From Elusimicrobiota bacterium (lineage in GTDB: Bacteria > Elusimicrobiota > Elusimicrobia > JACQPE01), in NCBI GenBank assembly GCA_016180815.1, contig JACPAN010000020.1, positions 1 to 64,000 of the forward strand: a stretch of 64,000 nt of DNA, given 5' to 3'. Of this stretch, positions 61,860 through 64,000 are shown in pieces (position 1 is the first letter of the stretch; every line of letters starts with the position of its first letter). The position numbers and the translations under genes were made by a program. Under the pieces are notes generated by a model, which saw nothing but the letters and a program-made list of their open reading frames with translations, was not told where the DNA came from and searched no databases.

Positions 61860-62309
61860 ATGCCGGCTCAAATGAACCCCCAGCGCCGCGCCGCTCTCGT
61901 TAAAGGGGCGTCCAAGGCGAAGATTAAAGCCCTGGTCAATCTCAACGCCTGCACCGGCTGCGAGGTCTGCATCGCGGTCTGCCCGGTGCCCACCTGCATC
62001 GAAAAATTCGGCGAATCACCGGAAAACTGGGGCGTTTATGTCAACTACGACATCTGTATTGGGTGCATGCTCTGCGTCAAAGACTGCCCGTGGGACACGA
62101 TACGTATGGTTCCGACCGATTCAATCAAGGAACACAAAACAAGTTTAGACAGCCAACTCACCCACGATCACGCCATTTTCAGCAACCCCCAAGTTGTCGA
62201 GGGAGAACTGCGAACCTTCGTCGGGAAACCCCCATTTAACAACCCCCAGGTTGAGCAACTTTTCCAGAAACAAAACCCCCAAGTGCCCAACTTGATGGGG
62301 CCCAAGTAG
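61860..62309 (+). CDS. 2[4Fe-4S] ferredoxin-type protein
   Basis: 149 residues. Two cluster motifs, CTGCEVCIAVCPVPTC (about 32-47) and CIGCMLCVKDCP, spaced about 20 residues apart, as in 2[4Fe-4S] ferredoxins and electron-transfer subunits. A basic N-terminal extension and a ~55-residue Pro/Gln/Asn-rich tail with FNNPQVEQLFQKQNPQVPNL are unusual. Partner enzymes are not in the window. The gene ends near the shift to AT-richer DNA, so it is the last core-like gene. Confidence 0.87.
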   Translation: MPAQMNPQRRAALVKGASKAKIKALVNLNACTGCEVCIAVCPVPTCIEKFGESPENWGVYVNYDICIGCMLCVKDCPWDTIRMVPTDSIKEHKTSLDSQLTHDHAIFSNPQVVEGELRTFVGKPPFNNPQVEQLFQKQNPQVPNLMGPK

Positions 62310-62496
62310 ACCTGGCCGATATTGCGGAATGTTGCCGAATGTTGCTCAAATGGGCAGCAAAGCGGGCAGCAAAAGTGCTACCCAAAAGGGCACATGGAAA
62401 GGGGGTGGGTAGCAGGGTTTTTGCGCTCTTCCTGAGGTCAACGCAAAAATCTGTGATCTCTTGAGGGTTAAGCCTTAAACCAAAAGAGCAAGGCTT

Positions 62497-62525
62497 TTGG
62501 CTTACATTTTACAGACCTGTAAAAA
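62497..62525 (+). promoter_or_regulatory. Promoter with palindromic operator before the HTH gene
   Basis: TTGGCT and TAAAAA are 17 bp apart. A palindrome TTTTACAG-AC-CTGTAAAA (62507-62524) covers the spacer and -10 region, as expected for autoregulation by the downstream HTH protein. The ACAG/CTGT core also recalls LexA half-sites, but the spacing is wrong for LexA. Confidence 0.45.
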
Positions 62526-62542
62526 TTTTATTAAATGAAGCA

Positions 62543-62764
62543 ATGTCGATAAAAGTTGCCGTAACCCCCAACGATATCTTGAGTACCACCGAGGTGTGTG
62601 AACTTTTGGGGATTACAAGACAAACCCTGTATTCTTGGATGGACCAAAATAGGATTAAACCCTGGAAGCGAACCGGCGGAGGAGCCACTTGGATTTTTTT
62701 ACGTTGGGACGCAGAAAAACTAAAGGGAAAAAAATATAAGCTGGAACCACAGCCCAACAACTAA
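62543..62764 (+). CDS. HTH_17/excisionase-type DNA-binding protein
   Basis: 73 residues. MerR-like winged helix: ILSTTEVCELLGITRQTLYS, then WMDQNRIKPWKRTGG and FLRWDAEKL, the hallmark of HTH_17/Xis-type proteins. Such proteins act in excision of mobile elements or as small repressors. It is the first gene after the composition change and has its own palindromic site upstream. No integrase is seen in the window. Confidence 0.82.
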   Translation: MSIKVAVTPNDILSTTEVCELLGITRQTLYSWMDQNRIKPWKRTGGGATWIFLRWDAEKLKGKKYKLEPQPNN

Positions 62765-62800
62765 AAAGCTTAAGTCTTCGTTGACGTTTTATTAATATTT

Positions 62801-63388
62801 ATGGAAATTAATGAATGTATTCAGCGATTAAAGGATCAACTTGGTCAAATTGAATCCTTAAAAAAAGGACCTGCCTTCAATCCGCAGTATCAGCTTTGGG
62901 AGAATGCAACAACTAGGTTACTGAAAAGCGCTTTTGATGAAGCGACGGTTGCTGTTTTTGAAGATTCGTCTGAAATGCGATGGTCTTTAAGCGATGAGGA
63001 TCATTGCGCAAAGTTTTTGGGGACTCTCGAAAAGAAAAGGTCGGCACTTGAAGCAATAATTCGACAATACGAAACGGCGTTGCATCCGATAGTCAACGGG
63101 ACTGCGGCAGATGTCCTACAAAATCACGCATTGCATACAAAAATTGAGGCGGTAGCCGGAAGCCTTTTCCGTGATGGGCATTATGCCCAGGCGGTTGAGG
63201 AAGCATTGAAGAGGGTTATTTCTGAAGTAAAAAATCGAATGCAGGCTCTTGGGAAAAATACGCATGACGGGGGAGATTCATTGATGAATCATGCTTTTGG
63301 ATGCGATAATCGAGCGCCATTTATCAAATTTAACCAACTGGGATCTCAGGAAGAGAGAGATGAGCAGAGGGGTATTATGTTCTTATGA
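62801..63388 (+). CDS. TIGR02391-like protein, C-terminally shortened
   Basis: 195 residues. Residues 1-105 are helical with no known domain. Residues 110-190 match the TIGR02391/Ymh family: HTKIEAVAGSLFRDGHYAQA, VEEALKRVISEVKNR, GGDSLMNHAFG and EERDEQRGIMFL. Family members normally continue with an RNPxAH motif right after this; here a stop codon comes first, so the last ~40 residues are missing. The family is common in defence and abortive-infection islands. AT-richer codon use than the housekeeping genes suggests transfer. May be non-functional or a variant. Confidence 0.75.
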   Translation: MEINECIQRLKDQLGQIESLKKGPAFNPQYQLWENATTRLLKSAFDEATVAVFEDSSEMRWSLSDEDHCAKFLGTLEKKRSALEAIIRQYETALHPIVNGTAADVLQNHALHTKIEAVAGSLFRDGHYAQAVEEALKRVISEVKNRMQALGKNTHDGGDSLMNHAFGCDNRAPFIKFNQLGSQEERDEQRGIMFL

Positions 63389-63461
63389 TCCAGATGAGTT
63401 AGTTCGAAAAAATGCAAATTGGGTAATCAGCAAGATTAGCGAAAAGATGAAGGGGGCATAA
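63360..63461 (+). CDS. Possible short ORF overlapping the TIGR02391-like gene (33 aa)
   Basis: ATG 63360 in another frame, after a purine-rich stretch (AGGAAGAGAG). Product MSRGVLCSYDPDELVRKNAN then a helix WVISKISEKMKGA. It overlaps the end of the previous gene by 29 bp and lies 49 bp before the DarT gene. It could be a small partner, or leftover sequence from a deletion that cut the upstream gene. Confidence 0.3.
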   Translation: MSRGVLCSYDPDELVRKNANWVISKISEKMKGA

Positions 63462-63510
63462 TCCCAACAACGTCAGTTGAAATTCAGACGGTCAGTTTTG
63501 GCGGATTTTA

Positions 63511-64000
63511 ATGGCTTTTCAAATTAGAGAGCTTTATTACATTACTCATATTGATAATCTTCCCAGCATTGTGGCGGAGGGGATTTTGTCTCATGAGTTA
63601 GTGCTATCTAAAGGCCTTCGATATACACCGGTCTATGACGAACAAATTATCGCCGGACGACGGGAGCGGACTGCGGGTGGCCGTAATCTTCTGAGCTTTG
63701 CGAATCTTTATTTTCAAGCAAGAAACGCCATGCTGTACCGGGTTCTTTATGAAAAATCGCCCAATGATATTGTGGTTTTAGGAATTAGCAGGGATATCTT
63801 AAGGCGACCTGATATTTTCATTTCAGACGGGGGGTTAGGAAGTCCGCAATCAAGCGTTCTGCCTCCTCAAGAAGGGTTGAAAAATATTGATTCATTGCGC
63901 AAAGAACTTGACAGCGAGTATTGGAAACCTGAGGACGGCTCTAAAAGAAAGATGATGGCCGAGTGTCTGGTGCCAGACCTCGTGCCACCCGATCTGATCA
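63511..64000 (+). CDS. darT: DarT-type DNA ADP-ribosyltransferase (DUF4433), 3' partial
   Basis: The frame is open to the last base; 163 residues are visible. Known family members ADP-ribosylate thymidine in single-stranded DNA and are toxins in DarTG toxin-antitoxin and phage-defence systems. Matching segments: YYITHIDNLPSIVAEGILSH, an Arg-rich AGRRERTAGGRN, NLYFQARNAMLYRVLY, and KRKMMAECLVPDLVP, whose Glu should be the catalytic residue. The usual antitoxin DarG (macrodomain) would lie downstream, outside the window. No Shine-Dalgarno sequence is evident at ATG 63511. Confidence 0.87.
   Translation, partial: MAFQIRELYYITHIDNLPSIVAEGILSHELVLSKGLRYTPVYDEQIIAGRRERTAGGRNLLSFANLYFQARNAMLYRVLYEKSPNDIVVLGISRDILRRPDIFISDGGLGSPQSSVLPPQEGLKNIDSLRKELDSEYWKPEDGSKRKMMAECLVPDLVPPDLI

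Follow-up and report, generated by a model that had tools for sequence, protein, structure and literature searches.

The window, i.e. the whole stretch of 64,000 nucleotides that was analysed, corresponds to positions 1-64000 of the 82,730-bp contig C20 of the Elusimicrobiota genome G000 (2.85 Mb). The rest of C20 is covered by locus L002, in which the contig position equals the L002 position plus 62,730. G000, G003 and G015 joined a named Elusimicrobia genome with a support of 1.000 in a tree built from rpoB of 11 genomes, in some of which the gene was incomplete. Towards its end the window contains a ferredoxin gene, and the features at and behind this gene are as follows (contig positions unless L002 is given).

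61860-62309, + strand: intact ferredoxin gene, 149 aa, two 4Fe-4S motifs (Fer4 families)
62082-62098, + strand: core of 17 bp, common to the live gene and the far copy, at which the identity between the copies starts; putative attL of unit 1
62082-62309, + strand: ferredoxin 3' tail, presumably brought in by the element; 83.8% identity to the copy at 69853-70080
62352-62373, + strand: P'-type arm with two copies of the 10-mer GGGCAGCAAA at a spacing of 12 nt; arm pattern expected 0.00 times in the window
62543-62764, + strand: HTH_17/excisionase-domain protein, 73 aa, candidate Xis or regulator (PF12728 E 1e-10; TIGR01764 excise 31.0 bits against a cut-off of 28.8)
62801-63388, + strand: TIGR02391/Hypoth_Ymh gene, truncated (PF09509 E 2.5e-12, profile positions 2-80 of 119)
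63511-64000, + strand: 5' part of a gene for a DarT-macrodomain fusion (in full 63511-64671, encoding 386 aa; DarT E 6.2e-33 from 63511)
65103-65894 and 65891-66808: adjacent AbiEi-AbiEii pair (PADLOC E 2.4e-85 and 4.5e-115)
L002 5014-7024, - strand: NTP_transf_8 and AbiEi_2-like pair, GC 0.541

The GC content is 0.570 across positions 1-62081 and falls past the ferredoxin gene to 0.45 across 62310-67669, whereas the lowest value among 567 windows of 5.36 kb each before 62,000 was 0.545. The island edge that the sequence-only reading had placed behind the ferredoxin gene is therefore real; its position has to be moved from 62,310 to about 62,082, where the unit begins within the ferredoxin gene.

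The 3'-terminal 75 codons of the ferredoxin gene are present again at contig positions 69,853-70,080. Both tail copies open with the same 17 bases (62,082-62,098 and 69,853-69,869), and the sequences upstream of each differ. A pair of direct repeats with a period of 12 nt starts at 62,352, soon after the live gene, and the far copy has a second such pair upstream of its core. The target gene is thus kept open as a frame of 149 aa with its 3' end duplicated at the far boundary. Given the tail copy, the core and the arms, this layout is the one expected for a tyrosine-integrase element that carries a replacement 3' end. A tRNA gene as attB was ruled out, as none is found in the window or in L002. 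The accessory island with DarT proposed earlier is supported, and the att sites for which a search past 64,000 had been suggested are clear in their anatomy at both ends of the unit. An integrase was sought there as well: no match to a PF00589 or PF00239 recombinase was obtained on C20, and no relic of an integrase gene of the G003 types (int1/int2) was found between C20 50001 and 82730 (best E 0.20). Unit 1 thus possesses attL and attR without integration genes, as do CIMEs and decayed elements, and being devoid of an integrase it would be either a decayed or a trans-dependent element, the mobility of which is deduced. Judged from these sequence features, the 7.8 kb between about 62,082 and 69,869 very probably represent an integrated, non-autonomous mobile unit at a ferredoxin-gene hotspot in an Elusimicrobiota family.

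Unit 1 is followed by a second unit of about 1.1 kb that encodes a HigB/HigA-like pair (Gp49 and HTH families). Arms of this unit are located at 70,137 and 71,214, and no ferredoxin tail comes after it. From the second unit to the contig end the GC content is 0.516. The region C20 71241-82730 (L002 8511-20000) carries genes resembling merR, merTP, crcB and those for a CopZ chaperone of the iron-sulfur type, a MerA-like FAD oxidoreductase, thioredoxin-type proteins and an arsenate reductase; these assignments come from ten scanned proteins, two of which had no match, and most best matches were below the curated cut-offs. The accessory region extends past both units, up to the end of the contig.

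Arm repeats, tails and integrases in related genomes

The arm pattern was counted in the locus and in the relatives. It occurs once in the window (0.00 expected) and three times in L002 (0.01 expected), a number that was reached in 0 of 200 shuffles. Across G000 there are six matches, four at the C20 array and two away from any tail found; G001 likewise has six, four at tails and two away from any tail found. All three matches of G003 lie within its array and the single one of G009 follows the live ferredoxin gene, whereas those of G002 (four) and G013 (one) are at no tail found and G037 has none, though an arm is visible there. The reversed pattern, which served as control, gave 0 to 2 matches per genome in seven genomes, with two in G000. 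Of the 17 live ferredoxin genes that have downstream sequence, 6 (G000, G001, G003, G009, G013 and G253) are followed within 200 nt by an 8-mer that recurs with a period of 12 nt, compared with such a repeat in 412 of 20,000 background segments. Six other repeat periods were tried on the live genes, and period 10 alone gave matches (two). The element-side arm is found upstream of four of ten tail copies and, in the three of these for which coordinates are given, lies at a distance of 44 or 45 nt from the core; the exact upstream repeat is missing in six of the ten and the exact downstream repeat in four. After the arm pair a palindrome of arm units is seen in places (GGACCGTAGCACTGCTACGGTCC in G009), for example in L106 after 4179 and in L104 near the end of the stretch. 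Located past several P' arms, it is a candidate third binding site or terminator.

A search with the complete ferredoxin gave matches at E 0.001 in 44 of 60 genomes (G000 among them), in many cases just around the Fe-S motifs. When the tail was used by itself, 30 of 235 class genomes matched, again including G000. The tails start at residues 74-76 in G000 C20, G001 C199 (two copies), G001 C54, G003 C65 (at 21.8k and 7.1k) and G037; the start is at residue 77 in the copy at 88k of G003 and further on in that of G013. All tails that share a contig with the live gene have one orientation. A decayed tail comprising residues 74-126, without arms, was noted at G000 C12 7546-7704 (L103). Calculated from 228 nt, the tree of the tails has good support at some nodes only.

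Further units bounded by such tails are present in two genomes of the same family, and in one of these arrays integrases and a prophage are found. The array of G003 extends over 85 kb and includes the live gene and three tails, all in one direction. The tyrosine integrases at C65 91092-92138 and 87092-88120 face the live gene and the first tail, respectively, in convergent orientation and are 50% identical to each other; G003 has nine PF00589 matches, three of them on C65. Between the tails at 88k and 21.8k lies a prophage with terminase, portal, head protease and tape measure genes. Of ten prophage proteins that were scanned, two gave no match; the others also comprised an integrase, a weakly matched tail protein, a DNA methyltransferase and a Sak4-like protein. 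An extra core copy at G003 C65 4671 (L095) is preceded by GTTAGC and not followed by a ferredoxin tail; perhaps it is the outer end of the array. The 5' part of the G003 gene is 82-83% identical to those of G000 and G001 and its tail just 71-72%, while the displaced tails at 88k and 21k are 88-90% identical to the G000 and G001 tails. This pattern of identities would fit replacement of the tail by the newest element. In G001 two tails lie on one contig, 2.4 kb apart, with a small unrelated cargo between them.

Outside the family, G037 has a ferredoxin tail about 4 kb from an integrase of the same clade. At L117 (G015 C10, around 174.7k) a ferredoxin gene is situated 1.3 kb from a same-clade integrase; it encodes 83 aa from the ATG in an open frame of 104 codons and ends shortly past the core motif CPWDAITMV. 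An integrase adjacent to the att site is absent from the unit of the window, present in G003 and 1.3 kb off in G015. When 1.7 kb on the 3' side of ten clade integrases was scanned (1.3 kb in the case of G001 C69), a ferredoxin gene or tail was found next to three of them, two in G003 and one in G015. The core was not found in the stretches around six other clade integrases (G001, G253, G024 and three in G015). No close empty site was found, the same-family genome G002 giving no tail match. Three of the eleven live ferredoxin genes without the 12-nt-period repeat (G057, G059 and G246), after which the start of an RNA-binding-protein gene was read by eye, were taken for empty sites. Compared with viral contigs, neither the ferredoxin tail nor int2 gave a match, and neither a free circular form nor an attP-bearing phage was found. 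One of three phage records related by terminase had an integrase match, of 24%, and the ferredoxin tail was not detected in the pieces of these three records that were examined.

The resemblance between unit 1 and the prophage unit of G003 allows a narrower reading that is compatible with a hotspot, namely that unit 1 is the fixed remnant of a G003-like, prophage-type element and can no longer move. Its left end matches the G003 prophage unit at 81% over 349 nt and its right end at 84% over 286 nt; the metallophosphoesterase gene after the AbiE pair is 88% identical in DNA to that of G003 over 850 nt. The lack of an integrase, the cut TIGR02391 gene and the low identity (36%) of the nearest int2 relative in G000 also speak for such a remnant. 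However, both ends share an identical 17-bp core and have an intact arm pair each, so that mobilisation of unit 1 in trans would be possible. We regard this question as evenly poised.

An ordinary duplication or unequal recombination of the ferredoxin gene, with no site-specific integration, would agree with an integrase-free unit in the window and with the upstream arms that are missing from six tail copies. It is very improbable, as the better-kept junctions begin no more than three codons apart and have arms on both sides, the G003 array holds integrases and a prophage, and the two tails of G001 enclose unrelated DNA. Site-specific integration at the ferredoxin gene is the reading that we prefer. 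Against it count the integrase-free unit of the window, the tail copies without exact repeats, the arm matches away from tails, the clade integrases with no core around them, and the failure to find a close empty site, a circular form or an attP-bearing phage.

Cargo of unit 1

The three genes that the sequence-only reading had named in the island, HTH_17, TIGR02391 and DarT, were all detected, the second one as Hypoth_Ymh/PF09509; the TIGR02391 model itself gave 35.8 bits, below its cut-off of 39.45, and the gene is cut short. It stops before the C-terminal RNxxxH stretch seen in a longer relative (G060). A plain frameshift was rejected, since the missing motif is in none of the three forward frames of 63301-63510. 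No match to this gene was found among plasmid sequences. The AbiEi gene stands next to AbiEii, the arrangement by which AbiE is recognized. The GC content of the NTP_transf_8/AbiEi_2-like pair is nearer to that of the host than is the remainder of unit 1.

In the 386-aa protein encoded from 63511, the DarT domain occupies residues 9-181 (E 9.6e-38) and a PADLOC DarG macrodomain residues 211-376 (E 2.5e-42). The PDB entry 7omu, which we take to be Thermosipho DarTG, aligns over residues 4-385 of 386 with 451 bits; the fusion architecture of DarT and macrodomain is hence already in the PDB. E151 of the window protein corresponds to an Ala in 7omu, which was taken for an inactivated mutant of the putative catalytic Glu. 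K301 aligns with Lys 90 of chain 5m31. By our own reading this residue is K80 of Thermus aquaticus DarG in the numbering of a tagged chain, and K80 is given as the catalytic Lys of that protein in PMC11543638. The fusion is in a single frame in 51 of 62 related loci, and these single-frame relatives retain E151 in 50 and K301 in all 51 cases. With a DarT domain that has the catalytic Glu and a macrodomain that has the catalytic Lys, the protein shares two characteristics of DarTG2, and it resembles 7omu in joining DarT to a DarG macrodomain.

A separate antitoxin with the C-terminal DarT-binding domain of DarG is absent: the protein ends at residue 386 after the macrodomain, and the match to the DarG profile covers 5-152 of 329. 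The darG looked for beyond 64,000 thus exists as a DarG-type macrodomain, although fused to darT in a frame that runs to 64,671 and not as a gene of its own. According to PMC11543638, DarG of two-gene DarTG frees thymidine of ADP-ribose and uses its C-terminal region to bind DarT; the window protein differs from this system in being one polypeptide without that region. A passage on fusions in PMC11543638 concerns plant NADAR proteins. As the C-terminal region of DarG is missing, the restraint of DarT probably rests on the tethered hydrolase, and infection might tip the balance between toxin and antidote. Among 235 genomes of the class a long match in one frame was obtained in G000 alone, five others showing a macrodomain or a broken frame, and for this reason the fusion looks acquired. 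Viral contigs gave three partial matches to the DarT fusion, and phage records one weak match to DarT.

The earlier proposal that TIGR02391 and DarT form a two-gene defence module is hardly credible, because for all that the genes adjoin (122 bp apart, on one strand) the TIGR02391 gene is truncated and without its C-terminal part, the DarT protein already has its own antitoxin domain and, among 34 genomes drawn from the 62 DarT-macrodomain loci, PF09509 was found in just two, once cut by a contig end (profile 1-40) and once about 23 kb from the DarT relative on what was taken, by its length of 48,297, as the same contig.

Ferredoxin genes as putative integration targets

Since tails, integrases and a prophage are also present at same-family sites, the ferredoxin gene appears to be an integration hotspot in Elusimicrobiota. 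An integrase would recombine a circular element at the core, around codons 75-79 of the ferredoxin gene. The element would bring its own copy of the last 75 codons; the gene would thereby remain whole, its tail being exchanged, and the tail so displaced would mark the far end. Repeated rounds of integration would stack the units in tandem. The unit of the window may have lost its integrase or never have had one, and it would depend on the integrase of another element. The cargo of the unit would act in defence and as toxin-antitoxin, through the AbiE pair and through DarT, the DNA ADP-ribosylation of which may be checked by the macrodomain hydrolase in the same polypeptide. The anatomy of the unit, the geometry of the repeats and the presence of integrases and a prophage at the G003 site are seen directly in the sequence; core recombination, gene restoration, mobilisation in trans and the defensive role of the cargo are what we infer from it.

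Mobile DNA in a ferredoxin gene is known from the fdxN element of Anabaena, which uses a serine recombinase, interrupts the gene and excises during development. The ferredoxin gene of Elusimicrobiota stays open, unlike fdxN. A ferredoxin gene as integration target was in no paper listed by a search of an open-access library. Elements that restore the gene and accrete in tandem at gene 3' ends are already known, at bacA and ssrA. At the bacA 3' end of Streptomyces, PAISt-type islands have a tyrosine integrase and a duplicated 3' end of 141 bp at the far end; an internal third copy splits the island into modules, and related islands keep an integrase remnant (PMC4057263). The target described there is bacA with an 8-bp palindrome, that described here a ferredoxin gene with a 228-bp tail and several arm types; unlike PAISt (PMC4057263), the ferredoxin site has a unit as short as 1.1 kb and, in G003, a prophage in the array. 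The tandem ssrA islands of Dehalococcoides are bounded by repeats of the 3' end of one gene, and the published account describes sixteen islands with an integration module and discusses cis-mobilizable elements (PMC3146451). They differ from the ferredoxin site in their serine recombinase DsiB and in a 20-bp repeat from an RNA gene (PMC3146451). Unit 1 is like CIMEs in having attL and attR, in the absence of integration genes and in its tandem position with other units; unlike the CIME/ICE/IME accretion described in PMC5704250, the integrase-bearing neighbour in G003 is a prophage.

A wider picture, which we put forward tentatively and consider rather unlikely, is that the ferredoxin genes of Elusimicrobiota are cassette platforms. 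Diverged tyrosine integrases with different arm repeats would share one target within the gene. Resident phages would act in trans on cassettes of 1-15 kb that lack an integrase and carry genes for toxin-antitoxin systems, defence or the envelope; they would capture and reshuffle these cassettes, and the C-terminal half of the ferredoxin would be exchanged every time.

In a phylum that has been little studied, the finding points to an integration hotspot in a protein-coding gene that would be used by a prophage as well as by small defence cassettes. The predicted core and arm sites are directly testable. In the DarT fusion, toxin and antidote domains would travel as one protein inside a cassette, and the C-terminal half of the ferredoxin itself appears to be exchanged by mobile elements.
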